64,000 nucleotides of DNA from Myxococcales bacterium (lineage in GTDB: Bacteria; Myxococcota_A; Polyangia; Palsa-1104), in contig PNAM01000010.1 in assembly GCA_003170275.1 (NCBI GenBank), positions 301,230-365,229 on the forward strand, read 5' to 3'. The notes under the pieces are model-generated. The model worked only from the letters and a program-made list of their open reading frames with translations, did not search any database and had not been told where the DNA came from. Shown in pieces: positions 25,393 through 51,087 of the stretch (positions are counted from its first letter, which is position 1; each line of letters opens with the position of its first letter). Made by a program: the position numbers and the translations under genes.

Positions 25393-27674
25393 GGCGCATA
25401 TCCTAGTTCGGAATCCTTGATCTTGCGCGCCAGAAGCCGAGCGCGCGCTCGTGCCAGGATCGCCCCTTCGATGTCGCCCGAATGATCCGCGATGTCCGCG
25501 AGCAGCTCTTCCGCCTGCTTGCGCTCGCTCAACGAGAGGGTCCCGTCGGCGCCGTGCCGCAGCAATGCCTGCGCGCCGGCGACATCCTTCGCCTCCAGCC
25601 GCAACCGTGCGCCCTGAAGGACGAGCGACCCGGCGTCCGGGTGGGCCACCCGCCCGCGACGGATCGCCTCGTCCGCACCAGGCAGATCGCCGGCCTGCGT
25701 GAGCGCCGTCGCTGCCGCCAGGTAGCCGCCCGGGGACGGCGTCGAGTCGAGCAACGCGCTCACGGCCTGCTTGATCCACTTCGGGTCGCGGGTCGACTGG
25801 GCGATGGTCAGCCATTGGACCAGGGAGGCCTCGGACCGACCCGCCAGCTCGACCGCCCTGCCGCACGCGGCGACGGCCAGCTCGATCCTTTTCTTGTAGA
25901 CCAGGTACTGCGCGAGCACGAACAGCGGGGCGGGCTGTTGCGCGACCGCGTCGATGATCCGGTCGCCCACCACGGCGTGAATCTCCTCGGGTGGAATGGG
26001 AATCCCCCGCGACGCCAGCCGGTATTCGAGCGCGGCCTGGGCGCGGTGCCCCTCGCCGGCGAGCACGCGCGCTGCCAACCGATGGGCCAACGAATTGGTC
26101 GGATGCAACCAGAGTGCGCGATTGAGGTGTTGCATCACCTCGGGTCGCTTGGTGCGAATCGCTTGTTCCGCCGCCACGAGCTCCAGCTGGTAGTCGGCCG
26201 GGTGGCGCTCGAGGGCCGCCTGCAGCGCTGCCGCGGGCGCGGCGCCGGCCAACTTCGAGAGGCGATCGGAGTCCGCCAACAAGGTGTGCGGCGCTGCGAA
26301 CGCCGAACCGACCAGCGCCACCGCCCAGATCCCGATCACCGCGCCGATCATCGAAACCGGCAGGCGCACCTTGCGCGCTTCGCCGGCTCCCTCGTAGGCG
26401 CGCCCGATCACGATGCCGAGCAGCGCGGCGGCCGGGAACGCGATCCCTGGAAACTCGAGGCTGAAATCGCCGGCGTCGTGCACCAACGCGGCGACCACCG
26501 CGCACCCGGCGGCGACCGTCGAGGGTTCGCGCTCCCAGACGCGCGGCACCACGCGCCTGGCGGCCAGGAAGAGCAGCGCCGCGAGCAGGAGCGCGATCGG
26601 AAATCCCCATTCGGCGCTCGCCTGCACGGCGACGTTCTCGGGATAGACCAGTCGAACGCTCTCGTCATCGTCTCGATACGCGAGCAGCGGCGCCTCGAAC
26701 GCGCCCCGACCGACGCCCGTCCACGCGTAATGGCGCGCCAAGATCATTCCGTCCCGCCAGCCCCGGAGCTTTTGCGCGAGCACCAGGTTCTCGACATTCG
26801 CGGGCAACACCCTGGCTCGCAGCCCGTCCGAGACCCACAAGGTCGCGCCGGATCCGAGGAGGATCAGCACGAAGCCCACGGCCAGCCCGCGGGCCCAGCC
26901 GAAACGGCGCGCCATCATCGTACCGACCAACCCGAAGGCGCCGACCCCGAGGCCCAGGGCCCCGGACCTCGAGGTGGTCAACAGCACCCCGGCGAAGGTG
27001 AGCCCGGCGGCGAGCAACATCCCGAGCCGGGCGCCGGCCTCGAACTCCAGGGCCAACCCAACCGACAAGAGACAGCCCATCGAAAACAGGGCCGCCGCGT
27101 GGTTTCCGTTCACGAAGGTTCCGAACACGCCGGTGCCCGCCAGGTGGCGCGGGTGGTACAACCCCAAGATGTCCTGGGCGCCGGTCATCTTCTGAACCAT
27201 CGCCAAGACCGCGAGCGAGGCCGCGAGGAGCGAGATCGCGACCAGCACGCGACGCGAGCGCTGCGGCGACCGCGCGACGCCCACCGCGCACATCATCAGC
27301 CCGAGACAGGCCAGCCCCTTGATCACCTCGAGCGCGGTCGCCGGAACGTCGAGCGTCAAGGGCATCCACGCCGGCGCGCTCCCTCCTGCGGCGTCGGCGC
27401 GCAGCTCGAAGGCCGACGGAGACAACCACCGGATGAAGCCGGCGGGCAGCGGGACGAGCTGCAGGATGGTGTAGCCGACCGCGATCACGCCTGGGAGCAG
27501 GAAGGGCACCACCCGCAGCCCGTGTCGCCCGCGGGAGATGGCGTACGCACCGAAGAGAACCAGGGCCGCCAGCGACAGGCCTACCTGCGTCCACGGGTGG
27601 ACGGAGCCGATGAGCAGGGGCGGCGCGATGGATAGGAGCAAGACGCCCCATGCCAACGCGCGCTCCAGTTTCAT
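25389..27674 (-). CDS. O-antigen polymerase/ligase family membrane protein with helical-repeat C-terminal domain
   Basis: A 761-residue protein. Residues 1 to about 460 contain roughly ten or more membrane spans with the Wzy/WaaL-type features LTTSRSGALGLGVGAFGL, a long periplasmic loop with NVENLVLAQKLRGWRDGM and HYAWTGVGRGAFEAP. The last 300 residues are soluble, alanine-rich and TPR-like (for example HLNRALWLHPTNSLAHRLAARVLAG). Such Wzy_C-plus-TPR proteins polymerise or ligate glycan units on the periplasmic side. It sits one base after the export lipoprotein stop and overlaps rfbB, so it belongs to the exopolysaccharide operon that begins with the barrel gene. Polymerase versus ligase cannot be decided. 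Confidence 0.85.
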   Translation of the reverse strand: MKLERALAWGVLLLSIAPPLLIGSVHPWTQVGLSLAALVLFGAYAISRGRHGLRVVPFLLPGVIAVGYTILQLVPLPAGFIRWLSPSAFELRADAAGGSAPAWMPLTLDVPATALEVIKGLACLGLMMCAVGVARSPQRSRRVLVAISLLAASLAVLAMVQKMTGAQDILGLYHPRHLAGTGVFGTFVNGNHAAALFSMGCLLSVGLALEFEAGARLGMLLAAGLTFAGVLLTTSRSGALGLGVGAFGLVGTMMARRFGWARGLAVGFVLILLGSGATLWVSDGLRARVLPANVENLVLAQKLRGWRDGMILARHYAWTGVGRGAFEAPLLAYRDDDESVRLVYPENVAVQASAEWGFPIALLLAALLFLAARRVVPRVWEREPSTVAAGCAVVAALVHDAGDFSLEFPGIAFPAAALLGIVIGRAYEGAGEARKVRLPVSMIGAVIGIWAVALVGSAFAAPHTLLADSDRLSKLAGAAPAAALQAALERHPADYQLELVAAEQAIRTKRPEVMQHLNRALWLHPTNSLAHRLAARVLAGEGHRAQAALEYRLASRGIPIPPEEIHAVVGDRIIDAVAQQPAPLFVLAQYLVYKKRIELAVAACGRAVELAGRSEASLVQWLTIAQSTRDPKWIKQAVSALLDSTPSPGGYLAAATALTQAGDLPGADEAIRRGRVAHPDAGSLVLQGARLRLEAKDVAGAQALLRHGADGTLSLSERKQAEELLADIADHSGDIEGAILARARARLLARKIKDSELGYAP

Positions 27675-27675: not shown

Positions 27676-28260
27676 CTAGAACAGCCGCTCGGGCACCGAT
27701 ATGATGTCGCCTGGGCGGAGGTACATGTTGCGCGCCTTGCCCTGCCCGATGTCTTCCACCGGCACCTTGGTGGTGGTCTTGACGCCCCCCTCGCTGCGGG
27801 TGACGGTCGTGTCGTTCTTGGCGGCCAACGGGGTAAAGCCGCCGGACAGGGTGATCGCTTCGACGACGCTCATCGAGGGCGTGTACGTCAGCGTGCCCGG
27901 CTTCGAGACCTGGCCAATGATGTAGACCTTCTTGGAAGTCTGATCCTTGACCAGCACGCTGACTTGCGGGCTGCGCAGGATTCCGTCGGACAGACGCTCG
28001 GCGATTCTCTTCGCGATCGATTGGGGGTCGAGGCCTTCGACCTTGATCACGCCGGCGAGCGGGAAGTTGATCGTCCCTTCGGCCCCCACGCGATAAAGCC
28101 CCGAGAGGTCGGCCTCGCCGTAGACTCGTACCTCGAACGTGTCGCCAATTCCAAGGGTGGTGTCCGCCGCCGGGATTTGCGTCGGCGTCTCGACGATGGT
28201 TGTCGCGCTAGGTCCGCAGGCAACGAGGAACAGAGCGAAGAACAGCGTGCTGCGCAACAT
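27676..28260 (-). CDS. Polysaccharide export lipoprotein (Wza-like, PES/SLBB)
   Basis: A 194-residue secreted lipoprotein: signal peptide with lipobox LVAC (Cys15). The mature part has the polysaccharide-export (PES) domain opening LGIGDTFEVRVYGEADLSG and GTINFPLAGVIKVEGLDP, then one SLBB repeat around KVYIIGQVSKPGTLTYTP and LRPGDIISVPE at the end. It is much shorter than E. coli Wza (about 380), so it would form only the periplasmic ring, with the adjacent barrel protein perhaps providing the outer-membrane passage. Ten bases downstream of the barrel gene. No Wzc/Wzb partner is visible in the window. Confidence 0.92.
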   Translation of the reverse strand: MLRSTLFFALFLVACGPSATTIVETPTQIPAADTTLGIGDTFEVRVYGEADLSGLYRVGAEGTINFPLAGVIKVEGLDPQSIAKRIAERLSDGILRSPQVSVLVKDQTSKKVYIIGQVSKPGTLTYTPSMSVVEAITLSGGFTPLAAKNDTTVTRSEGGVKTTTKVPVEDIGQGKARNMYLRPGDIISVPERLF

Positions 28261-28270: not shown

Positions 28271-29572
28271 TTAGTACAGCACCGCGAGTCGCAACCACAC
28301 CTCGTGCTTCAGGTAGTTCAGCGGGATGGGCTGCGTCGCAAGCGCGCTGGCCGACGCCAGATCTGCGTTCGTGTTGTTGTATTGGAGCACATATCCCAAG
28401 CTGCCAATCAGCCAGTCCTTGAAGGGATAGTCGACGCGCGCATCGAAGTTGAGGTAGTTGTCGGTCCGCGAGCGTAGGGGCATGCTCGCGTTGTCGACAA
28501 GACCACTGGCCAGCTGAATGTCCTGGTAGCGGATGTTCGAGTAGGTCAACTTCAAGCTTCCGGTGAAGCGCCAGATCAACTGGCTCCAGGCAATATAGGC
28601 GGAATCGATGTCGTAATACGAGCCGAGCAGCGAGTTCGCGAAGTCGTGCTTGTAGCCGATTGACCCCGACGAGAAGACCGTCGGCTTCCAACGGATGTCG
28701 AGTCCGGCGATTCCCGTATTCGGGCTCTGGCCCGTGGAAGCGGCAGTGGTCTGGTAGAAACCATTGGCGTAGCCAGCCCAAAGATTGAAGGAGAGCTTGG
28801 TTGTCAGAAGCCCGGTCAACCCGGCGATGGCGCGCAGCGGAAACGAGTTCGGATGGTTGATCACGCCGGGACCCGTGCCCTGGTAGAGGTACGGCGTATC
28901 GCTGATGTCGATCCACACCGACGTCTTGGGCAGGAACTTCCAGGCCGCGTGGAGCGCGACCTTGTGATAGTAGACGTTCAGATCCTGAAGCTGCCGCTCC
29001 TCGAAGAAGTCGATCCCGAACACATATTGAAGGTCGAACTCGAGCCGCCCGCCGCCCGGCCGAAAGCGAAGACGAAGCCCGGCCTCATTGGTGTCGCGAT
29101 CGAGGTTGGATTGAGTCGGCGTGAACGGCGGCTGGACGGTGCGCAGAAAATTGTCGAACAGATCGATTGTGAACGGGTAGAACGGCAAGATCGTCAGAAG
29201 TGCTCCGGCTTGGAGCCCGAAGGAGCGGTGCTGCGAAAGGAGCGGATTGGGCCCGAAGAACTCGTTGTAGTCCAATCCCGCGTGCAGTCGGAAGTCGATC
29301 GTGTGCGGCGTGCCGCCGCCGCGCAGTCCCGGTCGCGTCGCCAGATCGATCGACGGCAGCACGCGCAGGATGAACGCCGGGATCGCCGGGTTGGCCGCGC
29401 TGTCGTTGGCGAAGAAGACGTTCGAATCGTAGCGCCCCTCGACCGCAATGCCGAGGTGCAATACGAGGCGGTCGCCGAGTCGGATACCCGGCCCCTCCGC
29501 GCGCGCTGTGCTCGCACAGGCGAGCAGCACACACATCCCCAGGATAAACGAAGCTGATCGCTGTCCCCGCAT
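28271..29572 (-). CDS. Outer-membrane beta-barrel protein of the exopolysaccharide operon
   Basis: A 433-residue secreted protein: signal peptide to about residue 25 (cut after ASTARA), then alternating aromatic/polar strands typical of an outer-membrane barrel (GIAVEGRYDSNVFF, YPFTIDLFDNFLR, LRLRFRPGGGRLEFDLQYVF) and a terminal strand ending in Tyr (VWLRLAVLY). It opens a minus-strand operon with the Wza-like lipoprotein. Barrels of this kind (Wzi- or WzpX-like) accompany short Wza-type proteins in myxobacteria and may form the outer-membrane exit for the polymer; that role is inferred from position. Upstream region is AT-rich (29618-29651). Confidence 0.8.
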   Translation of the reverse strand: MRGQRSASFILGMCVLLACASTARAEGPGIRLGDRLVLHLGIAVEGRYDSNVFFANDSAANPAIPAFILRVLPSIDLATRPGLRGGGTPHTIDFRLHAGLDYNEFFGPNPLLSQHRSFGLQAGALLTILPFYPFTIDLFDNFLRTVQPPFTPTQSNLDRDTNEAGLRLRFRPGGGRLEFDLQYVFGIDFFEERQLQDLNVYYHKVALHAAWKFLPKTSVWIDISDTPYLYQGTGPGVINHPNSFPLRAIAGLTGLLTTKLSFNLWAGYANGFYQTTAASTGQSPNTGIAGLDIRWKPTVFSSGSIGYKHDFANSLLGSYYDIDSAYIAWSQLIWRFTGSLKLTYSNIRYQDIQLASGLVDNASMPLRSRTDNYLNFDARVDYPFKDWLIGSLGYVLQYNNTNADLASASALATQPIPLNYLKHEVWLRLAVLY

Positions 29573-29617: not shown

Positions 29618-29651
29618 AGTTAAGTTTAACTGCGTTGCGTGCTAGTTAAAC
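29618..29651. promoter_or_regulatory. AT-rich inverted-repeat island upstream of exopolysaccharide operon
   Basis: Within very GC-rich DNA this stretch carries AGTTAA-GT-TTAACT (29618-29631) and a larger inverted repeat GTTTAAC (29624-29630) / GTTAAAC (29645-29651). Read on the minus strand a weak -35 TTTAAC (29645-29650) and -10 TAAACT (29623-29628) are 16 bases apart, placed to start the barrel gene at 29572. It may be promoter plus operator; it also covers the last codons of the 178-residue secreted protein gene. Confidence 0.35.
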
Positions 29652-30178
29652 GGGGACGCCTCTGGCGGCCGCGTCACGTCTGGCAGCGGTAGCTGCGGCT
29701 CCGTCGGGTCGTCGTCGGGAACGCTGGGATCGATTTCGACCTGAACGTTGGTCGCCCCGACGTAGCTGGGCTCCTCGCCAACGCAGTTCTCCGCCTCGGT
29801 GCCGAGCACGAGAACCTTCTGATACAGAATCGTCATGCGGGTGAACTCGTGCTGCCGCTCGCCATCGTTTCCGCGAGCAACGGCGGTATTCAGGTTCACG
29901 ATTCCCTGGTCCGCCAGCGAGACGTGACCCTTGATCTGCACCAGCTTGTCGTTCACGCAGTTCAGCTTGATCGCGTCCTTCTTGCGGCGCGCCTGGTCTA
30001 CCAGCTTGGTGACCTTACCCTGCGAATCCTGCATCTTCTGCAGGAACTCGCGTGAAGTATTCATGGTCTCTTCCGGGCTGGTCTGGCGCGCAGGCGAATC
30101 CTCGGCGAACGCAGCCGTAGCCAACAGGAGCCCGAGTGGGCCCGCGATGGCGAAAAAGCGACGTTTGGTCAGACTCAT
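29642..30178 (-). CDS. Secreted hypothetical protein with proline-rich tail
   Basis: A 178-residue protein that I do not recognise. Start is set at ATG 30178 because GGAGG lies six bases upstream; an ATG at 30190 is the alternative. A signal peptide is clear (KRRFFAIAGPLGLLLATAAFA). The mature part is helical and charged (EETMNTSREFLQKMQDSQGKVTK), has two cysteines (in LNCVND and ENCVGE) and ends in an acidic, proline-rich tail (PDDDPTEPQLPLPDVTRPP). It has a near-consensus sigma-70 promoter of its own (30220-30248), so it is probably well expressed, and lies just downstream of the Glt-like operon. A periplasmic structural or accessory role is a guess from location only. Confidence 0.75.
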   Translation of the reverse strand: MSLTKRRFFAIAGPLGLLLATAAFAEDSPARQTSPEETMNTSREFLQKMQDSQGKVTKLVDQARRKKDAIKLNCVNDKLVQIKGHVSLADQGIVNLNTAVARGNDGERQHEFTRMTILYQKVLVLGTEAENCVGEEPSYVGATNVQVEIDPSVPDDDPTEPQLPLPDVTRPPEASPFN

Positions 30179-30219
30179 TCTTGCCTCCATGAGAGGCTCC
30201 CGTTTCAGTAGAGGGAGCT

Positions 30220-30248
30220 ATTATCTGCTCTCCGACTTACCGTGTCAA
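30220..30248 (-). promoter_or_regulatory. Near-consensus sigma-70 promoter
   Basis: On the minus strand TTGACA (30243-30248) and GATAAT (30220-30225) are separated by exactly 17 bases, one mismatch from the full consensus. It reads into the secreted protein gene starting at 30178. The -10 box is flanked by an imperfect inverted repeat (GGAGAGC ... GCTCCC) that could be an operator. A further inverted repeat, CCTAC (30263-30267) / GTAGG (30274-30278), lies just upstream, without a T-run. Confidence 0.75.
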
Positions 30249-30333: not shown

Positions 30334-31758
30334 TTAGTTGGCTTTGGTGAAGACGAACGGGTGCGAGATGTTGGACTCGCCCTTGGACGCCGGGAAGACC
30401 CAGCCCTTGATCTTGACCTTCATGCACGAGGTGACGTCGTCGGAGCCGAGCGTGTCGTCCTTGAAATCGACCTCGGTGACCTTGCCGACTGCGCTGACGG
30501 TGAACTCGACCGTCACCTTGCCGGAGAGCGAGCCGGAGCGCTTCAGGGCCGATTCGTAGCAGGCGGTCATGGAGCCCAGGTTACGGCGCACCACGCCGGC
30601 GATCAGATCGGACGACAGATCGCCATCGACCTTCGCCTTGCCGATCTCGGTGTGGCCCTTGACGATCACCGCGGTGCCGCCGGCCTTCTCGCCGGTGCCG
30701 ACCGCGCTGGTGCCGTTGAGGCTGATGGTCCCGCCCGTGCCGTGGTGCGTGCCGTCGCCGGTGCCGCCGCTCTGGTGCAGGCCGGGCCGCCCGTCACCGG
30801 ACGCGCCTTCGACGCCGCCGATCGACTTCAAGGTCTTGTCGGCGTCGTCCGACGGACGACCGTGCTTCAAAGTGTCGGAGACCACGCCGCCGCGGCCCTT
30901 CGAGGTGAGCTGTGCGAGCACGCCCTTCTTGGCGATCGCCGCGTTCAACGCCGCCACGCGATCCGCTTCCTTGCGCTCGGCCGCTTCCTTGGCCGCCGCC
31001 GCCGCCGCCGCCTTCTCCTCGTCGGTCGCTACGTGCACGGGCTTCTTCGGCCCGGGATCGCTCTTCGCCTTCTTGCCTTCGCCCTTGTCGGCGACCTTCT
31101 TCTCGGCGGGCTTCTCGGGCGCCTTGGGCACGTCGGCCGGCTTGGGCGGCTCCTGTTGCTTCACCGGATAGATCTTGCCGATCTCGACGTCGATCACCTC
31201 CGGATCGCGGACGCGCGGCCAATCGACGTTGCGCAAATACACCACGAAGCCGAAGTGCAACAGGAACGAAGCGCCCACCACCGCGACCAGCATCCAGTCG
31301 AGGTTCTGCATGAGCGACGAACGCACCGACGGCGGAAGCTGCGGCCGCGGCTGGATCGGCGGCGGCGCGACGAACTGGAACAGCACCGTCACGTCGCCGA
31401 TCACCACCTTGCCGCGCGCGCGGTCGGTGAGCATCAGGTGCCACAGGTCGCCCTTCTTTTGCGCCTTCCCCGCCTGGCGCAACGCCGGAAGCGCCACGAC
31501 CTGATCGCCCAGCGACACGCGGCCGTCCATCGCATCGGTGAAGTTCAGGGCATAGCCCTGGGGCGAGAGATCGAACAACACGAAGGTCCGCGGCAGCGCG
31601 TTGGAGGCCGGCACGACGAACGTGTTCTTCGTCGACTGACCGACGGTGACGTTCTCGCGCTTGCGCACGAGTCGCTCCTCGACGATCTTGCCGTTCTGGA
31701 TGATGCCGATACGGAGAATCTTCAGATCCGTATCGCCTTTTTTCTGCGCCTGGGCCAT
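30334..31758 (-). CDS. AgmX/PglI C-terminal domain protein with FHA-like N terminus (GltG-like)
   Basis: A 474-residue inner-membrane protein. Residues 1-130 look like an FHA-type beta sandwich (KRENVTVGQSTKNTFVVP, FDLSPQGYALNF). A single membrane span lies at about 153-175. A proline/lysine/alanine-rich periplasmic stretch (about 195-280, with a run of Ala) leads to glycine-rich linkers and a TonB-like AgmX/PglI C-terminal domain (about 375-474: VVRRNLGSMTACYESALKR, GKVTVEFTVSAVGKVTEV, CMKVKIKGWVFP). This is the architecture of GltG, which links the gliding motor to the envelope in Myxococcus. It ends the GltD-E-F-G-like gene order. Whether the cell glides is not shown by sequence. Confidence 0.82.
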   Translation of the reverse strand: MAQAQKKGDTDLKILRIGIIQNGKIVEERLVRKRENVTVGQSTKNTFVVPASNALPRTFVLFDLSPQGYALNFTDAMDGRVSLGDQVVALPALRQAGKAQKKGDLWHLMLTDRARGKVVIGDVTVLFQFVAPPPIQPRPQLPPSVRSSLMQNLDWMLVAVVGASFLLHFGFVVYLRNVDWPRVRDPEVIDVEIGKIYPVKQQEPPKPADVPKAPEKPAEKKVADKGEGKKAKSDPGPKKPVHVATDEEKAAAAAAAKEAAERKEADRVAALNAAIAKKGVLAQLTSKGRGGVVSDTLKHGRPSDDADKTLKSIGGVEGASGDGRPGLHQSGGTGDGTHHGTGGTISLNGTSAVGTGEKAGGTAVIVKGHTEIGKAKVDGDLSSDLIAGVVRRNLGSMTACYESALKRSGSLSGKVTVEFTVSAVGKVTEVDFKDDTLGSDDVTSCMKVKIKGWVFPASKGESNISHPFVFTKAN

Positions 31759-31776
31759 CAGTTCACCTTTGGATAC

Positions 31777-32031
31777 TTAAAACGGGTGCTTGCCCGTCGC
31801 CTGAAGGATCTTGGGCAGGAAGTCCTGTTTCAGGTTCTCCCAATCGTAATCCAAATTGGAGCGCTGGAGAAGGTAGAAGGCCTGCGGCTTGTGCACGTGG
31901 CCCTCGACGACGGTCGCCTCGAGCTTGATCACGCGCCCGCCGCCGCGCCGCTTCTCGCCCTCTTCTTCCGCGCCCGCGAGTCCACCGAGCGCCGCCAGAA
32001 ATCCCGCCGCCAGAACGAGTCGCTTCATCAT
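31777..32031 (-). CDS. Small secreted protein (GltF position)
   Basis: An 84-residue protein with a signal peptide (MMKRLVLAAGFLAALGGLAGA). The mature part is about 63 residues: an acidic-basic segment (EEEGEKRRGGGRVIKLEATVVEG), then KPQAFYLLQRSNLDYDWENLK and a short tail. Its start overlaps the stop of the TPR gene (ATGATGA, 32026-32031), and the AgmX/PglI gene starts 18 bases after it. In Myxococcus the small gene gltF sits between gltE and gltG, so position suggests an equivalent; sequence similarity cannot be judged here. Too short for a fold assignment. Confidence 0.75.
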   Translation of the reverse strand: MMKRLVLAAGFLAALGGLAGAEEEGEKRRGGGRVIKLEATVVEGHVHKPQAFYLLQRSNLDYDWENLKQDFLPKILQATGKHPF

Positions 32032-32939
32032 TTGTCTCCCGTCTTGCCGGCAGGCGCAGGCGCGGGCGCGGCCGGTTGCGCCGCCTTGGCCGCTTCCTTC
32101 TCGCGCTTCTTCCGCTCGCGGTCCTGCTTCTTCTGTTCCTTCTCGATCGACTTGCGCGCGTCGGCCATGTACTGGTCCGACGGATCGTCCTTGCCCAGGC
32201 GCGCGCCCATCATCTGCTTGTAGCGGCTGATGAAGTTGATCGACGCGTTCCACTGCGCGACCAGATCCTGGTTGGGCATCTGCGTCGCGTCGAGATAGAG
32301 GATGCCCAGGTTGAAGTACGCGTCGGCGTAGTTGGGATCGAGCTCGAGCGCCTTCTTGTAGGCCTTGTCCGACTCCTCGTAGCGCTGCTTGCCGCGATAG
32401 GCCGAGCCCAGGTTGAGCCAGCCCTTGGCGAAGCGCGGCGCGAGCTGCGTCGACTTCTCCGCCGACTCGACCGCGCCGTCGTAGTTCTTCGCGAACAGAT
32501 ACTGCGCCGCCAGGTTGTTCCACGCGGCGGCGTAGTTGGCGTCCAGCTCGGTGGCCTTCTTGAAGCTCGCCGTCGCCGCGATGCGATCGTCCTTCTGCAG
32601 CGCGATGAAGCCGGAGAGGTTGTGCGACTCGGCGTTGCCCTTGTCGACGCCCTGCGCTTCCTTGATGATCGCCTGCGACAGCTCGTACTTGTGCTGCGCG
32701 AAGTAGCTCTTGGCGAGCAGCATCATCGCCGGCACGTACTTCTCGTCGCGGCTGAGCGCCAGCTTGGCCTGCTGGATCGCGCGCTCGTAGTTGCCCTTCT
32801 TGTAGGCCTCGGTCGCCACGTCGGTGTCCGGCTTGGGATCGGTGCCCTGCCGCTCTTCGACGGTGCCCTTCTTCTGCGCCAGCGCCGCGCCGGAGGATGA
32901 CACCAGCAGCGCCGCCAGCAGGAATTCGCCGGTGCGCAT
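32028..32939 (-). CDS. Secreted TPR protein (GltE/AglT-like)
   Basis: A 303-residue periplasmic or membrane-associated TPR protein. Signal peptide to about residue 21 (LLAALLVSSSGAALA), then at least five TPR units, e.g. AYKKGNYERAIQQAKLAL, AESHNLSGFIALQKDD, AAWNNLAAQYLFAKNYDGAV, GWLNLGSAYRGKQRYEES and ADAYFNLGILYL. The C-terminal 50 residues are a highly charged helix (KSIEKEQKKQDRERKKREKE) ending in an Ala/Pro tail. Start ATG 32939 shares one base with the upstream stop. Order and fold match GltE (AglT) of the Myxococcus gliding complex; no lipobox is visible, unlike some GltE annotations. Confidence 0.8.
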   Translation of the reverse strand: MRTGEFLLAALLVSSSGAALAQKKGTVEERQGTDPKPDTDVATEAYKKGNYERAIQQAKLALSRDEKYVPAMMLLAKSYFAQHKYELSQAIIKEAQGVDKGNAESHNLSGFIALQKDDRIAATASFKKATELDANYAAAWNNLAAQYLFAKNYDGAVESAEKSTQLAPRFAKGWLNLGSAYRGKQRYEESDKAYKKALELDPNYADAYFNLGILYLDATQMPNQDLVAQWNASINFISRYKQMMGARLGKDDPSDQYMADARKSIEKEQKKQDRERKKREKEAAKAAQPAAPAPAPAGKTGDK

Positions 32940-35900
32940 TACGGGTTCTCCAGCTGCATGTCGATGTGCTCGTCCTTGGTCATGGGGAACTTCTCGGGAT
33001 CGAACGCATTGGCGTGCGAGCGCGCCTGGCGCGTCCATTCGTTGGAGACGCCCAGCTTGCCGGCGATGGTCAGCGTGGTGGTGTAGTCCTGCACCGCCAG
33101 CTTATCAACGTCCGCGACCTGCGGTTCGATCTGATCGGACATCTGCTTGGAATAGGCATCGCAGCCTTCCTGCTTGAATTGCTTCTGGATATCGGCCGGG
33201 CAGGGGTACGAAAGAATGCCGCGCAGCGACTTGGAGACGAACTCGCGGATGTAGCCCAGCCGGAACAGGCCGGCCACGTACCAGGTGGCGCGCTTGTAGT
33301 CGGTCACCTTCTGATAGGAGGTGTACAGCTTGCCCGCCTCGTCCTGCAGCTTCTGCAGCGAGGGCAGCACCTGCTTGGGATTCTGCGAGACCTTCATCTT
33401 CTCCAGGTCCGGCAGCCGCTGCTCGGTGAGGACGAACTCGGCGTGCGCGGGATACTCCGCCTCGTCCGAGCTCGCCGTCGCGGTCTTGCCCATCGCGACG
33501 ATCTTCTTGTACTGCTCGTCGGCCGAGCGGCGGTCCTTCTTGGCCTCGAAGATCTCGGCCATCTTGAAGTTGACCTCGAGCGTGCGCTTGAGGCCCGGGC
33601 TGAACTTGGACAGGTACTCGCGGAAGGTCTTGAGCGCCGCGTCGTTGTCCTTGAGCTTCTGGTAGCAGATGGCGGCCGAGTACACCGCGTCGGCGGGCGA
33701 CGCCGGCGGCAGCTCGCCCGGCTTGAGCACCTTGGGCGGGCTCTTGTCGTTGGCCTTCTCCACCGCGTACTTCTTGTAGAGCTCGGCGGCCTTGGCGTAG
33801 TTCTGATCGTACTCGAGGATCGACGCCGCGCCGTAGAGCGCATCGAAGTGGAACTTCGATCCCTTGAAGCGCGGCTCCTCGGCCAGCCGCTGGTAGTTCT
33901 TGACCGCGCCGTCGAAGTCGAACGCCTTCTGCGCCGAGGCCGCCACCAGGTAGAGCGCCTCGTCGACGAACTTGGAGCTCGGATACTCGTCGACGATCCG
34001 CTGGTAGACCTGCTTGGCCTTGCCGGGCCGGTGGATCTTGTTGTAGCAAACCGCCGCGTTGTTGAGCGCCGCGTCGGCCTGCGCATCCTTCGGGTTGGCG
34101 TCGATCAGCTGCTCGTACAGCGGCGCGGCCGCTTCGCAGTTGCCGTCGTTGAACAGCTTCTCCGCTTTGTTGAACTTGGCCGAGGCGATGGTCTTGCCGA
34201 GCGCCTGGGTCTGCTCCGCGACGGTGGCCGCGGTGCCGCACTGCTTCTTCTGCAGCGTCTCGGCGAACTCGGCCACCTTGTCGAGGTTGTTCTCGAGCGT
34301 GAACGAGTTGAGGATCGCCTTGCCGGCGTTGGAGCCGATCTCGTCCTTGCAGTACTTGTCGAGCAGGATCAACATGCGCGCGCGCATGTCCTCCCACTGG
34401 AGATAGTTGTAGGCCAGCTCGGCGGCCTTGTAGCTCATCGACGGCACGCGCGGCGCCTTGGGCACGCGCTGCACGAAGATGTCGTACGACTGCTGCAGCT
34501 TGGTGACCATCTCCGGATACGGAATCGGCGTGATCGGCGGCTTGAGCGAGCCCTGCTTGGGCGCCGGCTGCGGCCACGCCAGCTTACCCTTGTCGGCCTG
34601 ATCGTCGAGGTACTCTTCGTACGCCTTGGTCACCGAGAACGCCGCGTCCTCGGCGTACTTGTTGTCGAGCCGCGAGTCACGCACCTGCTCGTACTGCCTG
34701 GCCGCCTCGAGGTAGCGCTCGGCGTAGTAGAGCGCCTCGGCGTAGGCGTACGAATACTCGTAGCTCTCCTTCGAGTTCGGATACTTCGAGAGATAGACCT
34801 CCCACGCGCCGGCCGCCTTGGCGTACTCCTCCTTGACGGTGCGGTAGGCCTCGGACGAGTTGCGCGCGCGCCGCGCGTCCTTGTAGCGCGGGTCGTCGTG
34901 CTTGGGCAACGGCGGCAGCTTCTTGCGGCGATCGAGCGCGTCGTTCTGATAATCCGCCGCGACCTTCTGCAGCGTGAACTCGGCCAGCTCGTTGGCGGTG
35001 TCGATGGCCGCCTTGTTGTCGCGGTTGTTCTTGAACCACTCGCCCTTTTCGTTGGTGTAGTTGGCGACCAGCTTCTCGCGCTCCTGGAACGCCATCTTCT
35101 CGTTGTGCAGCGTCTCGTAGATGCGCACGATCCGATCCTGCAGCTTGGGACCGTCGGGGTCGTTGGGCCAGCGCTCGATGGTCTTCTTGTAGGCGTTGAT
35201 CGCGTGCGGGAAGTCGGCCTTGTCGAAGTAGACGTCGCCGAGCTTGGCGTAGATCTCCTTGACGTGCTGCTCCGAGTACCGGCCGCGATAGAACTGCTCG
35301 ATGCGCTCCAGGCCGCGCAGCGGGCTCGACTCCTGCTCGAGGTTGATGTGATCGTTCCAGTCGGTCTCGGAGAAGCTCACGCCGAGGTACTGCACCGACT
35401 CGACGCGCAGATCCGAGCCTTCCTTGCCGGTGTCGGTGCGCTTCTTGTCGGAGTAGACCACCAGCTCGTCGAACGCCTTGACGCCCTGCAGGTACTTGTC
35501 GTGGCGATAGAACGACCACGCCAGCTTGTACAGCGCCTTGTCGTAAAGCGACGAGTCCTTGGCCAGCACGCGCGTGTAGGCGGCCTCCGCGCGCCCGAGC
35601 TCCTTGTTCTGCTCGGACACGTTGTTGCGAATCTCCGACGCGCGGTCGAAGTGATACTCGCCGATGCGGATCCACGACTCCGGGATGAAGCGCGAGTCGG
35701 CCTTGACCGGCTCGCAAGTGTTGTAGACCTGCTCCGCGTCCTTCTCGCTCTCCTTCGATCCGAGCTTGGACTGATCGTCCGCGCCCGGCGGCGGCGGATC
35801 GAGCGCGCCGTACTTGTTCTTGCACACCAGCGCGCGGAACGCCTGGAGCGACTCGCCGTCGCGGGTCATCTCCTTCAAGCAGTAGCCCATCAGGTAGTAC

Positions 35901-36403
35901 GCGCCGTCGATGAGCCGGTAAGTCGGGAAGCGCGCGATCAGATCTTTATAGATGTCGATGGTCTTCTGGTAGTCGGCGGTGATGCCGGCCGACCCGTTCT
36001 GGGTCGCGATCAGGTACTCGTCGTTGTTCTTCTCGAAGTACAGCTCGGCGAGCCGGAACATCGCGTCGGGCGTCCAGCGATCGTCGTGCGAGTACTTGGA
36101 CAAGAAGTTCTCGAACAGCACGATCGCGGCCGATCGGCGCAGCCGCTCCTCTTTGTCCTCGACGTCGATCTGCGCCTGGTACTTGCCGGTCAGCGTATGG
36201 CGCTTCTCGGAGTACTCCTGCTGCACGACGTGCTTGAGCGTGGTGCGGAAGTCGCGCTGCGCGTCGTCGAACTCGCCGACTTCCTTCTGCAGCGCATCGA
36301 ACTCTTTGTTCTCGTCGATCGGCTGGCCCGGCAGCGCGCCGTCCGCGCCCAGCGCCAGGCCGGAGATCCCGACGGTAAATGCCACTACGGCGAAGGTCCT
36401 CAT
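32939..36403 (-). CDS. Giant periplasmic TPR protein (GltD/AgmU-like)
   Basis: A 1154-residue secreted protein. Signal peptide to about residue 19 (VVAFTVGISGLALG). The rest is helical repeats of TPR type throughout, e.g. DAMFRLAELYFEKNND, LYDKALYKLAWSFYRHDKY, KLGDVYFDKADFPHAINAYKKT, AYAEALYYAERYLEAARQYEQV, AAVCYNKIHRPGKAKQVYQ and AAICYQKLKDNDAALKTFRE. Size and make-up match AgmU/GltD (about 1200 residues), the periplasmic scaffold of the Myxococcus gliding complex, and the GltE-, GltF- and GltG-like genes follow in the same order. It overlaps the upstream 822-residue gene by four bases. A long opposite-strand frame is only its shadow. Confidence 0.82.
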   Translation of the reverse strand: MRTFAVVAFTVGISGLALGADGALPGQPIDENKEFDALQKEVGEFDDAQRDFRTTLKHVVQQEYSEKRHTLTGKYQAQIDVEDKEERLRRSAAIVLFENFLSKYSHDDRWTPDAMFRLAELYFEKNNDEYLIATQNGSAGITADYQKTIDIYKDLIARFPTYRLIDGAYYLMGYCLKEMTRDGESLQAFRALVCKNKYGALDPPPPGADDQSKLGSKESEKDAEQVYNTCEPVKADSRFIPESWIRIGEYHFDRASEIRNNVSEQNKELGRAEAAYTRVLAKDSSLYDKALYKLAWSFYRHDKYLQGVKAFDELVVYSDKKRTDTGKEGSDLRVESVQYLGVSFSETDWNDHINLEQESSPLRGLERIEQFYRGRYSEQHVKEIYAKLGDVYFDKADFPHAINAYKKTIERWPNDPDGPKLQDRIVRIYETLHNEKMAFQEREKLVANYTNEKGEWFKNNRDNKAAIDTANELAEFTLQKVAADYQNDALDRRKKLPPLPKHDDPRYKDARRARNSSEAYRTVKEEYAKAAGAWEVYLSKYPNSKESYEYSYAYAEALYYAERYLEAARQYEQVRDSRLDNKYAEDAAFSVTKAYEEYLDDQADKGKLAWPQPAPKQGSLKPPITPIPYPEMVTKLQQSYDIFVQRVPKAPRVPSMSYKAAELAYNYLQWEDMRARMLILLDKYCKDEIGSNAGKAILNSFTLENNLDKVAEFAETLQKKQCGTAATVAEQTQALGKTIASAKFNKAEKLFNDGNCEAAAPLYEQLIDANPKDAQADAALNNAAVCYNKIHRPGKAKQVYQRIVDEYPSSKFVDEALYLVAASAQKAFDFDGAVKNYQRLAEEPRFKGSKFHFDALYGAASILEYDQNYAKAAELYKKYAVEKANDKSPPKVLKPGELPPASPADAVYSAAICYQKLKDNDAALKTFREYLSKFSPGLKRTLEVNFKMAEIFEAKKDRRSADEQYKKIVAMGKTATASSDEAEYPAHAEFVLTEQRLPDLEKMKVSQNPKQVLPSLQKLQDEAGKLYTSYQKVTDYKRATWYVAGLFRLGYIREFVSKSLRGILSYPCPADIQKQFKQEGCDAYSKQMSDQIEPQVADVDKLAVQDYTTTLTIAGKLGVSNEWTRQARSHANAFDPEKFPMTKDEHIDMQLENP

Positions 36404-38868
36404 GGCTGATCCTTCAAGACGTCCTTGTAGTCGTCGTCGAGCAGCTTGAGCTCACGCTTGCGCTCGGCGACCAGGCGCGTGGACTCGCGCGAAGACTGAT
36501 CCTTCAGCGCCCACGCCACGTCGATGATGCCCACGTCGGAGCGCACGACGATGTTGTAGAAGCGATTGGCGACCGTGTGGAAGCTGTCCGCCACCACCGC
36601 GCCGCCCACGTCGGTCGACTCGTTGGTGTAGCCGCCCAACGTGTCGCGGAAGGCCACCATGTGCGCCTTCTCCTCGACCAGCGTCGACGCCACGTCCGTC
36701 AGGCGCGAATCGAGGATCTCGTCGATGCGCACGTTGTACTTGGCGATCTTCTGATCGACGCCGCGTGCGCGCTCGAGGATCGATTCGATCTGATCGGCCT
36801 TGGTGCGCTCGGCCGCGCCCATGCGCGCCTTGACCTCGACGCCGAGGTCGTGCTGCCGCTTGAGCAGCTCTTCGTACTGGCCGCGCAGCTGCTCGGCCGC
36901 CTGCATGTCGTTGTCGCCCACGCCCACGCTGGAGGCGTGATCGAGGATGTCCTTGCGCACGTCGTCGATGGCCGCGAGCAGCACGTTCATGTCCGAGGTG
37001 GTGCCGTCGAGCTCGTTCTTCGACTCGAGCGGCCGGTTGATCGCGGTGTCCTTGAGCTTGTCGAGCCGCGCGCGCACCACGTCGGCGTTCTTCTCGACCG
37101 CGGTCAGGTCCTTGTTGATGTGATCGTAGAGCTCGGTGTACGGCGCGTTCGCCGCCGGCTCGTTCTGCGGCGCGGGCCCCGGCTGCTGCGGGGGCGGCGC
37201 GGGAATGGCGGCCGGGTTCTGCTTGACCACCGCGTCCACGTACATCCTGCGCGCCGCCTCGAGCTCGTTCTTCATGGCGTTGATCGCGGTGTTCATGCGC
37301 GACGCGCGCTTGTCGAGATCGTTGAACGCGGCGCGCGCCTTCTGCTGCCGCTCGACGATGGTCGCCGAGTTGGAGGGCAGCGCCGACAGCTTGGCCTCGA
37401 GCCCGGTGCGCTCCTGATCGAGCGCGTCGAGCTGCGCCTTCTGCACGCCGGCCGCTGGCGCGAACAGCTGCGACTCGCGCACCGCGAGCTGCTTCTTGAC
37501 GTCGGTGAGCGCGTTGGCGAGCTCGGCCACCTTGGCGCGCCCCGAGGCCAGCTCGGGGAACACGTTGACGCGCGCCGGTCCGTTGAGCGCCTTCTCCAGC
37601 CGCTTGATGATCTCATCGCCTTCGTCGATCGACTTCTTCAGATCGCTCTCGTCGCCGATCAGCGTCGAGACGCGCACCACCTCGGGCTCGTCCTTGACCC
37701 AGCGCTGCGCGCCGGCGGGCAGGATCGAGACGATGTCGAACTTGGAGAGGTTCTTGGTGATCAGGTCGCGGAAGTACGCGCGCGCGTCGCCGGTGCGGCC
37801 GAGCTCGTCGTTGAGCTGCCGGTAGATCGGCTCGAACTCGTCGCGCGTGCGGGTGTAGCCGTCGGTGGCCGGGCCGTACTCGTTCTGCCGGATGTGCAGG
37901 CTGGCGACGATCAGCTTGACCTCGGGCGCGAGCGGCGACTCGGGCGCGTTGAGCAGCATCAGATCGAACTGCTGGCGCGCGCGCACGTAGTCCTTGCCCT
38001 TGATCGCCACCCAGGCCGACTCGTAGAGCATGTCGTTGAACTGATCGCTCTTGGTCCCGACCTTGACGTACTCGTCGAGCGCCTGCGTCAACAGGCCGCG
38101 CTCGAGCAGGATGCGCGCGGTGGCCATGTGCGCCAGATCGACGATGCGCTTCTGCGAGTCGGTCTTGGCCTCTTGCTTGAGGATGTTGGCGAACGCCGCC
38201 AGCGCGTCGTCGAGGTGCTCGGCGCCCATGGCCACGTTGGCCGCGCCGACGAAGTACTGCGCGTGGAAGTAGTAGATGTGCGAGGTGCCGATCGACTTGA
38301 GCGCCTCGACCGATTTGTCGAACTGCCGGCGGAAGTAATAGTACTTGCCCTTGACGTACGGCACCGACGGCAGCTGCTTGTCGACGGTGAGGGTCTCCAG
38401 CTTGGTAATGTAGTCCTCGACCGAGGCGTAGTCGCCGGTGTGCAGCGACAGCTCGATCAGGCGCTGCAGCGCCTCCTGATAGCGGCGGCCGCCTGCGCCC
38501 AGCTCGACCACCTTGTGGAAGAACTTGCCCGACGACAAGAAGTCGCGCTTCAAGTACAGCGAGTCGGCCAGGTAGAACAGCGATTCGGGATAGGCCGCCG
38601 AGTTGGGATACTTGTCGACGACGTCGAAGAGAATGATCGAGGCCGACTCGTAGTTCTTCAGCTCGTAGAGCACCTGGGCGTCGATGAGGCGACGCTCGGC
38701 GATCTCCGGCCCCGGCCCGACCGGTGGACGAAGCTGCTGATTCAGCTCGTACACTCTCGCATCGAGCTCCGTCACCTTACCACCCAGCTGATCGACCTCG
38801 TCCGCGCGGACTTGCGCGGGCACGACCAGCCCGGTGCCGACCACCAGCGCCAGCAGGATACGATTCAT
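36400..38868 (-). CDS. Periplasmic TPR/coiled-coil protein
   Basis: An 822-residue secreted protein: signal peptide to about residue 22 (LLALVVGTGLVVPAQVRA). Residues 50-330 are TPR-like helical repeats (LYELKNYESASIILFDVVDKYPNS, MATARILLERGLLTQALDEYVKVG). Residues about 390-700 are long charged helices with heptad character (DEGDEIIKRLEKALNG, ALDQERTGLEAKLSALPS), broken by a proline-rich linker (PAIPAPPPQQPGPAPQNEP). It precedes and overlaps the GltD-like gene by four bases and is probably a partner of it. I do not recognise a named family; it may be an additional scaffold of the same complex. Confidence 0.8.
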   Translation of the reverse strand: MNRILLALVVGTGLVVPAQVRADEVDQLGGKVTELDARVYELNQQLRPPVGPGPEIAERRLIDAQVLYELKNYESASIILFDVVDKYPNSAAYPESLFYLADSLYLKRDFLSSGKFFHKVVELGAGGRRYQEALQRLIELSLHTGDYASVEDYITKLETLTVDKQLPSVPYVKGKYYYFRRQFDKSVEALKSIGTSHIYYFHAQYFVGAANVAMGAEHLDDALAAFANILKQEAKTDSQKRIVDLAHMATARILLERGLLTQALDEYVKVGTKSDQFNDMLYESAWVAIKGKDYVRARQQFDLMLLNAPESPLAPEVKLIVASLHIRQNEYGPATDGYTRTRDEFEPIYRQLNDELGRTGDARAYFRDLITKNLSKFDIVSILPAGAQRWVKDEPEVVRVSTLIGDESDLKKSIDEGDEIIKRLEKALNGPARVNVFPELASGRAKVAELANALTDVKKQLAVRESQLFAPAAGVQKAQLDALDQERTGLEAKLSALPSNSATIVERQQKARAAFNDLDKRASRMNTAINAMKNELEAARRMYVDAVVKQNPAAIPAPPPQQPGPAPQNEPAANAPYTELYDHINKDLTAVEKNADVVRARLDKLKDTAINRPLESKNELDGTTSDMNVLLAAIDDVRKDILDHASSVGVGDNDMQAAEQLRGQYEELLKRQHDLGVEVKARMGAAERTKADQIESILERARGVDQKIAKYNVRIDEILDSRLTDVASTLVEEKAHMVAFRDTLGGYTNESTDVGGAVVADSFHTVANRFYNIVVRSDVGIIDVAWALKDQSSRESTRLVAERKRELKLLDDDYKDVLKDQP

Positions 38869-38874
38869 GTTCTT

Positions 38875-39669
38875 TTATTTCTTCGCCGCAGGCTTGCCGG
38901 CGACGTCTTTGTCGGAGAGCACGGACTCGCGGAAGTCCACCGAGGGACGGTCCTTCGGATCCGTGGTCACCGGGTTGCCCTTCTCGTAGCCGACGACCTT
39001 CAGCTGGAGCTGCTTGCCCTCGCCGGCGGTGAAGGTGTGACTCGACTTCGCGGTGAAGCGATAGCCCTTGAGATAGCTGAACAGCCCGTACCCGTTGCCC
39101 TGGTAGATCATCTGCACCGAGAGCGTGTGGTTGCCGGGCACGATGGCGCCGTCGAAGACCTGGATCTCCTTCTTTTCGGCCAGCTTGCCGGTCTCGTCGG
39201 TGGCGGCGTAGATCTCGGCGCCGTCCAGCGCGTACACGTAGCGGACCGGCGTGTACATCGAGCCCATCTCGTTCTTGTGCGTGATGGTCGCGCGCGCGCC
39301 GGCGATCACGCCGTGCAGCACGGTCTCCTTGAGCAGGTTCAGCCGCGCCTTGGAGCGGAAGATCTGCTCCTTGAGCTCGTTGACGTGCCGCTCGAGATCG
39401 CGCAGGCGCACCGCGTTCTGACCCGCGGCGGCCGCGATCGGATTGTTCACTCCGGTCGCCGCCGCAGGGGGCGGCGCCGGTTGCACCGTAGGTGTCGGCG
39501 CCGACACGGGTTGGCCGCCAGGCGCCGGCGTTGCCGCTGGCGCTGCCGAGTTAGCTGCTGGTTGCGACTTCTGGTCGCCTGCCGGATCGGCCGCAAACGC
39601 TACGGGCCCCCCCGCCAAAAACGCCAGACACATCAACACACCTTCAGTGGTCATGTTGGGCCTGCGCAC
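38875..39669 (-). CDS. Secreted Pro/Ala-rich protein, first gene of Glt-like operon
   Basis: A 264-residue protein. Start taken as GTG 39669 because GGAG lies eight bases upstream; ATG 39654 is the alternative but has no ribosome site at the right distance. A signal-peptide-like segment (VLMCLAFLAGGPVAFA) is followed by a low-complexity Pro/Ala stretch (about residues 35-75), a short coiled-coil (VRLRDLERHVNELKEQIFRSKARLNLLKE) and a beta-rich domain with YVYALDGAEIYAATDE and GNHTLSVQMIYQGNG, resembling a carbohydrate-binding or PEGA-like sandwich. Unknown function; it leads the operon behind the promoter at 39707-39735. The low-complexity part can attract false acyltransferase matches. Confidence 0.75.
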   Translation of the reverse strand: MRRPNMTTEGVLMCLAFLAGGPVAFAADPAGDQKSQPAANSAAPAATPAPGGQPVSAPTPTVQPAPPPAAATGVNNPIAAAAGQNAVRLRDLERHVNELKEQIFRSKARLNLLKETVLHGVIAGARATITHKNEMGSMYTPVRYVYALDGAEIYAATDETGKLAEKKEIQVFDGAIVPGNHTLSVQMIYQGNGYGLFSYLKGYRFTAKSSHTFTAGEGKQLQLKVVGYEKGNPVTTDPKDRPSVDFRESVLSDKDVAGKPAAKK

Positions 39670-39755: not shown

Positions 39756-40754
39756 TCAAGCCTTTAGTTGCTTCCAAAGCGCTTCCAGAATCGGGTTCAG
39801 CCCGTCGCGGGTCGCGGCGGACACCGCGTGCAGCTCGATCCCGCGCGCCGCGAACTGCGCTTTGAGCGCGGGATACGCCTCGCGCGTCTCGGTGACGTCG
39901 ATCTTGGACAGCGCGACCACCTGCGGCCGGCGCGCCAGCTCCGGGTCGTACTTCTCGAGCTCGCGATTGATCACGTCGAAGTCCTTGAGCGGCTCGCGTC
40001 CCTCTTCATGCGACCGCTCGACCAGGTGCAACAGCACGCGCGTGCGCTCGACGTGGCGCAGGAATCGATGGCCGAGCCCGTGCCCTTCGGAGGCGCCTTC
40101 GATCAGCCCCGGGATATCGGCCAACAAGAAGCTGCGCGAGCCGGACATCCCGACCACGCCAAGGTTGGGGGTGAGCGTGGTGAACGGATAGTCGGCGATC
40201 TTGGGCTTGGCGCGCGAGACCACCGAGATGAAGGTCGACTTGCCGACGTTGGGATAGCCGAGCAGGCCGACGTCGGCGAGCAGCTTGAGCTCGAGCAGCA
40301 GCACACGCTCTTCGCCGAGCGTGCCGGTCTCGGCGTTGGTCGGCGCCTGGTTGGTCGAGGTGGCGAAGTGGATGTTGCCGCGCCCACCGGTGCCGCCTTG
40401 CGCCGCGACGAAGCGCGTGCCCGTGGCCACCAGATCGGCCAGCACCTCGCCGGTCGCTTCGTCCTTGATGATCGTGCCGACCGGCACGCGCACGATCATG
40501 TCCTCGGCGCCCGCGCCATACTTGTCACGCCCCATCCCGTGCCCGCCCGACTTGGCCGAGTAGCGCTGCTGGTAGCGAAGATCGAGCAGCGTCGAGAGCT
40601 GGTCGTCGGCGAGCAGGATCACCGAGCCGCCGTTGCCGCCGTCGCCGCCCGACGGTCCGCCGCGCGGCACGAACGGCTCGCGGCGAAAGGTCGCCTTGCC
40701 GTCGCCACCGCGACCGGCCTTCACGTAGATCTTTACTTCGTCGATGAATTGCAT
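39756..40754 (-). CDS. obgE: GTPase Obg/CgtA
   Basis: A 332-residue Obg GTPase acting in late 50S ribosome assembly and stress control. The glycine-rich Obg fold covers residues 1-158 (KAGRGGDGKATFRREPFVPRGG). The G domain has GYPNVGKST (G1, 166-174), a threonine in the TTLTPN switch, DIPG (G3, 213-216) and an SKID motif where most relatives have NKxD (G4). There is no extended C-terminal Obg domain beyond the G domain. Downstream of rpmA with 22 bases between, the standard rplU-rpmA-obg order. Confidence 0.97.
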   Translation of the reverse strand: MQFIDEVKIYVKAGRGGDGKATFRREPFVPRGGPSGGDGGNGGSVILLADDQLSTLLDLRYQQRYSAKSGGHGMGRDKYGAGAEDMIVRVPVGTIIKDEATGEVLADLVATGTRFVAAQGGTGGRGNIHFATSTNQAPTNAETGTLGEERVLLLELKLLADVGLLGYPNVGKSTFISVVSRAKPKIADYPFTTLTPNLGVVGMSGSRSFLLADIPGLIEGASEGHGLGHRFLRHVERTRVLLHLVERSHEEGREPLKDFDVINRELEKYDPELARRPQVVALSKIDVTETREAYPALKAQFAARGIELHAVSAATRDGLNPILEALWKQLKA

Positions 40755-40776
40755 GGTCCGCGTGGGACCTGGAAGA

Positions 40777-41052
40777 CTACGCGGCGGCTACGGGCGGCTT
40801 GACGCTGCAACGGCGGCGGACGGTACCCTTGTTCTTGAACTGGGAGTACTCGACCACGCCGTCGATGAGCGCGAAGATGGTGAAGTCGCGGCCGAGGCCG
40901 ACGTTCTCACCGGGATGAATGACCGTCCCCTTCTGCCGCACGAGGATGTTGCCGGCGATCACCTGCTCGCCGCCGAAACGCTTGACGCCACGCATCTTCG
41001 GGCCGGAGTCGCGGCCGTTGCGTGAAGCGCCCTGTCCTTTTTTGTGAGCCAT
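40777..41052 (-). CDS. rpmA: 50S ribosomal protein L27
   Basis: A 91-residue L27. It starts [16 protein letters not shown], the canonical N terminus that reaches the peptidyl-transferase centre, and contains [20 protein letters not shown]. No N-terminal extension of the Firmicutes type is present. A purine-rich ribosome site precedes ATG 41052. It lies 24 bases downstream of rplU in the usual order. Confidence 0.98.
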
Positions 41053-41076
41053 CTTGGTCTACCTTAGCCTTTGGCC

Positions 41077-41388
41077 TTACGCGCTGATTCCGGTGATCTT
41101 GACGGCCGTGAACGGCTGACGATGCCCGGTCTTGCGGCGGTAGCCCTTGCGGCGGCGATACTTGTAGATGATGAGCTTCTCGCCGCGGCCGTTCTTGACC
41201 ACCTCGGCGGAGACCGTCGCGCCGGTCAGCATCGGCTGCCCGACCTTGACGTCGGCACCGTCGGCGACCATCAGCACCGCGTCGAAGGTCACGGTCGCGC
41301 CGGGCTCGACGCCCAACTTCTCGACCTGAATGGTCTCGCCTTCGGAAACCCGGTACTGCTTACCACCTGTCGCGATCACGGCGTACAT
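41077..41388 (-). CDS. rplU: 50S ribosomal protein L21
   Basis: A 103-residue L21 of normal length. [18 protein letters not shown] at the start and the basic [17 protein letters not shown] segment near the end are diagnostic for the 23S rRNA-binding protein. First gene of the rplU-rpmA-obgE cluster, with AGGAG about ten bases before the ATG and a plausible promoter at 41423-41450. Confidence 0.98.
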
Positions 41389-50982: not shown

Positions 50983-51047
50983 CCGTGACCGTAGCCTACA
51001 TCCGGTTTGCTTATGCCGCGTTGCGTTGTGCAAACTTTTGTTCGGTC

Positions 51048-51076: not shown

Positions 51077-51087
51077 CCATCGGTCCG

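Follow-up and report, generated by a model that had tools for sequence, protein, structure and literature searches.

A block of six genes in the 64,000-nucleotide stretch of Myxococcales DNA that we analysed (the window) is, judged by sequence and gene order, the orthologue of the G4 cluster of Myxococcus xanthus, which contains the gltD paralogue MXAN_1922. We consider it probable that these genes encode a third class of proton-driven envelope machine of the Glt/Nfs type, which would be driven by the M2 motor instead of AglRQS and would move or place the polymer exported by WzaB. The G4 cluster, the M2 motor, and the "orphan-like" wzaB gene have hitherto been listed apart, and comparative gene order argues that they are parts of one machine. 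In many lineages, the block is also linked to the genes for the MglA/MglB polarity switch. These findings offer a route to the evolution of gliding and of spore-coat assembly.

A conserved block of genes

The six genes lie where the original prediction put them, at 30334-39669. All are on the - strand, and neighbouring genes overlap or sit less than 20 bp apart. The first gene of the block encodes A264 (38875..39669), a secreted protein of 264 amino acids. It is followed by B822 (36400..38868; 822 amino acids), a secreted protein with TPRs and a coiled coil; a secreted 1154-amino-acid TPR protein that is similar to GltD and is the orthologue of MXAN_1922 (32939..36403); a GltE-like TPR protein of 303 amino acids (32028..32939); a GltF-like secreted protein of just 84 amino acids (31777..32031); and a GltG-like protein of 474 amino acids that is predicted to be in the inner membrane (30334..31758). 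The genes rplU-rpmA-obgE (39756..41388, - strand; identified from their translations) flank the block directly upstream and are outside the machine.

A264 and B822 had been described as two extra genes that precede the Glt-like genes, but they are invariant members of the block. We examined 80 named loci from other Myxococcota and counted the scorable cases only. A264 and B822 are adjacent in all 77 of these (including four with overlapping ORF ends, which we counted by eye), and A264, B822, and the GltD-like gene occur in this order in 62 of 62. The GltE-like protein is present in 51 of 52 loci and the GltF-like protein was detected in 42 of 49. Across the phylum, B822 is present in 112 of 141 genomes.

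The conserved unit also reaches past the six genes, down to position 27676. The original prediction placed the block next to exopolysaccharide export genes, which is correct, and these genes belong to the block: genes for X182 (a secreted helical protein), a predicted outer-membrane beta-barrel, and an OPX protein follow the GltG-like gene in relatives as well (see below).

A264 comprises a Pro/Ala linker, a coiled coil (residues 80-117), and a beta-sandwich (residues 125-251), and it does not match any family in Pfam. We considered assigning a function to A264 from its fold, but dropped this because its AlphaFold model (pLDDT 78) had no significant fold match in the PDB (the best match had E = 0.002 and TM = 0.29). 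At five loci (L053, L110, L111, L116, and L118), the A264 gene is tandemly duplicated at the head of the block. B822 has its TPRs in the N-terminal half. We also considered whether B822 might be GltC and rejected this: its match to the GltC model is driven by the TPRs and scores 41 bits against a cut-off of 450, and there is a far better GltC on another contig (C112) of the same genome.

Similarity to GltD, GltE, GltF, and GltG

The proposed homology to GltD-E-F-G was supported both by profile matches and by gene order, which is the same in essentially every relative that we examined. All of the Glt profile scores are under the curated cut-offs: the GltG-like protein matches the NCBIfam model for GltG at 141 bits (E = 4e-41; the equivalog cut-off is 650), the GltE-like protein matches the GltE model at 83 bits (cut-off 225), and the GltF-like protein matches the CglF model at 17 bits (E = 0.004; cut-off 90). 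The GltF-like protein also has a conserved motif, VEG-x-KPxAFY...SFLPKI. Pfam identifies only TPRs in the proteins of the block.

The GltG-like protein was predicted to contain an FHA domain, a membrane span, and an AgmX/PglI domain. The C-terminal part of this description holds, as the protein passes the threshold of the AgmX/PglI C-terminal domain model (myxo_SS_tail; 86 bits vs. 40). The FHA domain was not detected in the sequence with Pfam, and comparison of the protein to PDB sequences gave no useful match. The AlphaFold model (from a 28-row alignment) has a confident beta domain at residues 14-130, a helix at residues 155-177, and an alpha/beta domain at the C terminus; we read these as a degenerate FHA-like domain, a membrane span, and a TonB-like domain (residues 376-473), respectively. 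The best matches from Foldseek include FHA domains and the C-terminal domains of TonB, with marginal E values (0.003-0.02). So, the N-terminal FHA domain is a statement about the predicted fold and not about the sequence. In contrast to the GltG of the gliding machinery, the window protein lacks a canonical FHA domain at its N terminus, and its alignment begins at position 213 of the 650 in the profile.

Orthology to the G4 cluster of M. xanthus

In Myxococcus dinghuensis (locus L124), the gene order is recR, masKBA (on the opposite strand), mglB, mglA, A264, B822, and the GltD-, GltE-, GltF-, and GltG-like genes, followed by a cNMP-binding protein, X182, the barrel, and Wza. This parallels the numbering of MXAN_1929-1915, and the mgl region of M. 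xanthus, as described, has the arrangement seen in M. dinghuensis (masABK is divergent and recR lies beyond it). We counted the MXAN numbers from mglA (MXAN_1925) along the M. dinghuensis genome rather than reading them from the genome of M. xanthus. By this count, A264 is MXAN_1924, B822 is MXAN_1923, the GltD-like protein is MXAN_1922, the GltG-like protein is MXAN_1919, the barrel is MXAN_1916, and the OPX protein is MXAN_1915. Publications give the same numbers for the gltD paralogue of G4 (1922), WzpB (1916), and WzaB (1915); we infer the numbers between them.

Thus, as seen via M. dinghuensis, the window has the same genes as G4, in the same order (A-B-D-E-F-G), with the same X182-WzpB-WzaB set downstream, and its GltD-like protein groups with those of this cluster (see below). 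Unlike G4, the window copy is preceded by rplU-rpmA-obgE instead of mglBA. The upstream position is variable within the group, so we did not treat mglBA as defining.

The G4 cluster and the M2 motor were described without an assigned function (Luciano et al. 2011, PMC3169522), and nothing functional can be transferred from G4 to the window. In the same study, a polar mutation in MXAN_1922 had no appreciable effect on motility, which makes a role in gliding unlikely. In the literature that we searched, we found no mention of MXAN_1917, 1919, 1920, 1921, 1923, or 1924.

A paralogue of the gliding cluster

As originally stated, counterparts of GltA-C and GltH-J are not in the block, and we found no GltC, GltH, GltI, or GltJ in its neighbourhood. 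We searched the rest of the genome (8.17 Mb in 118 contigs, with an estimated contamination of 6%, so that a stray contig is possible) and found a Glt cluster on contig C112 and an AglRQS-type motor on contig C45. The Glt cluster includes GltC (E = 6e-101), a GltD of 1209 amino acids, GltE, a CglF-type GltF that scores above the cut-off, a full-length GltG (E = 1.7e-144; at 483 bits, it is also under the cut-off of 650), and, at the position of GltI, a TPR protein that is longer than 2400 amino acids. A further set of GltC-, GltD-, and GltG-like genes, together with two OMP_myx_plus proteins, is on contig C28 (L039), and there is also a GltG-like gene on contig C43 (L041:9467-11941).

In a tree of GltD proteins, the window copy joins the block copies from other Myxococcota, including the mglBA-linked copy of Myxococcus and Archangium, and is separated from the copies on C112 and C28 and the G1, G3, and G5 copies of M. 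dinghuensis (support 100/100). The tree was rooted at its midpoint and several of its outer rows are long branches. On this evidence, the window block is a separate and phylum-wide paralogous machine and not a shrunken Glt system. Of the original suggestion of a "reduced or repurposed" machine, "repurposed" fits, in that the block is linked to a polymer and not to gliding, while "reduced" does not, because the genome has its own Glt cluster elsewhere.

Both of the characterized machines of this type resemble the predicted one. The block shares with the Agl-Glt gliding machinery the homologues of GltD, GltE, GltF, and GltG and, as predicted here, a TolQR-type motor, but it lacks GltA-C and GltH-K, and its orthologue in M. 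xanthus is dispensable for gliding. With the Nfs spore-coat complex (NfsA-H, which works with AglRQS), it shares GltD/E/F/G-type proteins, a predicted proton motor, and dedicated Wza-type export. In contrast to the Nfs complex, NfsA, NfsB, NfsC, and NfsH are absent from the cluster, the GltD-like protein falls in a separate clade from that of Nfs, and the predicted motor is of the M2 type and not AglRQS.

A predicted M2-type proton motor

At 7 named loci, genes for a MotA/ExbB protein (AglR-like) and two ExbD proteins are found directly after the GltF-like gene, in the operon. In a tree of ExbB proteins, these in-operon motors group with an ExbB-ExbD-ExbD set from the window genome (on contig C40) and with a motor from Myxococcus and Archangium whose ExbD proteins have about 174 and 194 amino acids (100/99). 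The motor whose ExbD proteins have 162 and 193 amino acids, which are the lengths of AglQ and AglS, is left out of this group. We identified the 174/194 motor as M2 (MXAN_3003-3005) because Myxococcus and Archangium have just one further AglR-like clade, which is this one. In a tree of the second ExbD, the in-operon motors again group with M2 and not with AglRQS (100/100); the tree of the first ExbD is poorly resolved except for M1. In the window genome, in contrast to the in-operon motors, the M2-type genes are outside the operon, as they are in Myxococcus.

A match to the second ExbD of M2 of at least 100 bits is found in 79 genomes, and all of these are among the 112 genomes with B822 (not corrected for kinship). 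Furthermore, in 32 of the 75 genomes in which both positions are known, the M2-type ExbD is about 8.2-9.6 kb from B822, inside the operon. If placement were uniform, we would expect this in about 0.4 genomes (binomial P ~ 5e-52, ignoring kinship).

At 12 further loci, there is a TolQ-like gene between the GltF- and GltG-like genes (profile comparison, 98.7% probability). It encodes a degenerate TolQ/ExbB-like protein (for example, L064:14507-15166 matches PF01618 with E = 0.007, under the Pfam cut-off), and no ExbD was seen beside it.

The downstream polysaccharide exporter

The genes for X182 (29642..30190), the WzpB-like barrel (28271..29572), and the WzaB-like OPX protein (27676..28260) are all on the - strand. 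We found X182 in all 15 of the relatives that we searched, and it follows the GltG-like gene in many loci. X182, the barrel, and OPX follow the GltG-like gene in this order in M. dinghuensis, in Archangium lansinium, and in the MAGs with loci L083, L087, L102, L109, L113, and L126. At L068, OPX comes a few kb later; at L062, L103, and L128, we found two of the three genes; and at L098, which is a short contig, only X182.

The barrel was identified as WzpB-like (MXAN_1916-type) from its position and homology, and its match to Pfam's BBP2_2 is sub-threshold. The OPX protein (MXAN_1915-type) has just 194 amino acids, with Poly_export (E = 1.4e-20) and SLBB domains that extend to residue 189 and without a C-terminal helix domain. 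A short OPX protein that adjoins a putative barrel gene 10 bp upstream is what characterizes the class 3 translocon WzaB/WzpB, so these genes probably encode one. When compared to the three Wza proteins of M. dinghuensis, the window OPX scores 150 bits against the copy from the same block and 71 and 59 bits against the others, so by best match it is the orthologue of WzaB. (MXAN_1915 was previously called orphan-like.) In M. xanthus, WzaB and WzpB (MXAN_1915 and MXAN_1916) are the pair for BPS export (PMC7310880, PMC9603273, PMC9601211). The window pair is orthologous to it by best match and by position, but the neighbouring sugar genes in the window (NeuB, epimerases, MBOAT) need not yield BPS.

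The 143-bp gap between the GltG-like gene and X182 contains a promoter-like site on the - strand (30220..30248; TTGACA-17-GATAAT, an 11/12 match), and perhaps a separate X182-WzpB-WzaB transcript begins there. This is weak evidence: the region has 2 such sites, and 1.8 would be expected by chance.

Beyond the OPX gene, a membrane protein that is similar to Wzy and O-antigen ligases (25389..27674, - strand; Pfam Wzy_C, E = 1.8e-9) opens a set of polysaccharide genes. We found no homologue of it downstream of the block in 13 relatives, so it is not a conserved member of the unit. Positions 3021-24382 encode NeuB with a SAF domain, an amidotransferase, a UDP-sugar dehydratase, an MBOAT acyltransferase, a DegT aminotransferase, GT4/GT1 glycosyltransferases, and an AMP-binding enzyme with a GNAT acetyltransferase; the polysaccharide genes also include epimerases. 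From its gene content, this region looks like a pathway for the synthesis of a glycan that contains a nonulosonic acid.

Upstream context

In the 80 relatives, the block is preceded by mglBA (16 loci), by obgE (14 loci), or by a divergent sigma/anti-sigma pair (30 loci). The pair comprises ECF-type sigma and putative anti-sigma genes directly upstream (for example, L061:8411-9022 and L069:8862-9470) and may regulate the block in those relatives. In the GltD tree, the copies with linked mglBA do not form one group but are spread over several branches. The linkage would be either ancestral or gained repeatedly; the midpoint-rooted tree is compatible with both. In the window genome, dnaX-ybaB-recR-mglB-mglA are together on contig C48 (L194, 7137-10988). 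In Myxococcus, a set like this one stands before the block, suggesting that mglBA and the block came apart in the lineage of the window genome.

A proposed mechanism and its alternatives

Our likeliest reading, by analogy to Agl-Nfs, is that an M2-driven transducer handles the WzaB-exported polymer after its export. The GltG-like protein would sit in the inner membrane, with its FHA-like domain in the cytoplasm and its TonB-like domain as a periplasmic arm. The TolQR-type M2 motor (from C40 in the window genome) would act on the GltG-like protein, and the periplasmic GltD-like, GltE-like, and B822 proteins, along with A264, would pass the force outward. Linkage of these genes is strong evidence for joint function and is not proof that the proteins form a physical complex, as they presumably do. 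The machine would serve the WzpB-WzaB exporter in the outer membrane, which is encoded downstream, and the exported polymer would be moved or placed at the surface, much like the spore coat by Agl-Nfs. In that system, both the NfsD complexes and the spore-coat polymer, which is exported by ExoA, are moved over the spore by a proton motor that is not needed for export (PMC3858216). According to the same paper, MXAN_3003 of M2 binds neither GltG nor NfsG. At loci with linked mglBA, the polarity of the machine may be set by the MglA/MglB switch.

Swarms without BPS are severely impaired in pilus-dependent spreading (PMC7310880), while the polar MXAN_1922 mutant moves normally, which implies that the machine is not needed for the bulk export of BPS. 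Handling of the polymer after export would reconcile these observations, provided that X182-WzpB-WzaB are transcribed separately, for which the 143-bp gap and the promoter match are only suggestive.

A broader proposal, which we put forward tentatively and consider less likely than not, is that the machine is a proton-driven surface conveyor for a Wzx/Wzy polysaccharide, controlled by the polarity switch. The ancestral operon would have combined mglB-mglA, the transducer, M2, and the OPX-barrel exporter; this machine would be an original client of the MglA switch, and Glt gliding and Nfs spore-coat assembly would be specialisations of the principle that arose later.

The absence of a motility defect in the MXAN_1922 mutant would also be expected if M2 and the GltG-like protein energise the maintenance or constriction of the outer membrane and peptidoglycan, as a general machine of the Tol-Pal/TonB type, with Wza/Wzp as mere long-lived neighbours. 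The block occurs in most of the phylum, it lies next to housekeeping genes in the window (rplU-rpmA-obgE) and in 14 relatives (obgE), and its GltG-like protein has a TonB-like domain, all of which fits with this as well. However, the X182-barrel-OPX linkage spans very distant lineages with differing upstream contexts, and the nearest characterized relatives, Glt and Nfs, both act on polysaccharides, so we consider this explanation to be somewhat unlikely. It seems more doubtful still that the machine is an effector of the MglA/MglB switch that, for example, recruits or positions polar pili or secretion, with polymer export as just one client. Such a role could explain why mglBA is directly upstream at 16 of 80 loci from several deep lineages, and the genes from dnaX to mglA are together, on another contig, in the window genome; but mglBA is unlinked in the window and in most loci, and loss of MglA abolishes motility, whereas the MXAN_1922 mutant has no motility defect.

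A reduced or alternative gliding machine would account for the homology and gene order that are shared with gltD-E-F-G. We reject this as very improbable, and for M. xanthus it is largely refuted: the orthologue is dispensable for motility there, GltA, GltB, and GltH-K are absent from the block, and the window genome has other contigs that carry a Glt-like cluster and a motor of the AglRQS type. Finally, TPR matches are promiscuous, so the block might have been a chance neighbourhood of generic TPR proteins. However, the order is conserved in essentially every relative and the GltD tree is well supported; this synteny refutes the idea, to which we give practically no credence. We favour the M2-driven machine that handles the polymer.

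Other genes in the window

At 48796-54229, a gene similar to TonB-dependent receptors is divergent from genes for a TPR lipoprotein, a TonB-like protein, ExbB (PF01618, E = 5.9e-30), and two ExbD-like proteins. This looks like an ordinary TonB system. We considered its TonB-ExbB-ExbD-ExbD genes (51879-54229) as the motor for the block and rejected them, as they are outside the AglR/M2 clade. Lastly, positions 45978-49186 encode two adjoining secreted proteins that resemble each other and have the motif CSYTFD; one has about 470 amino acids and the other at most 600.
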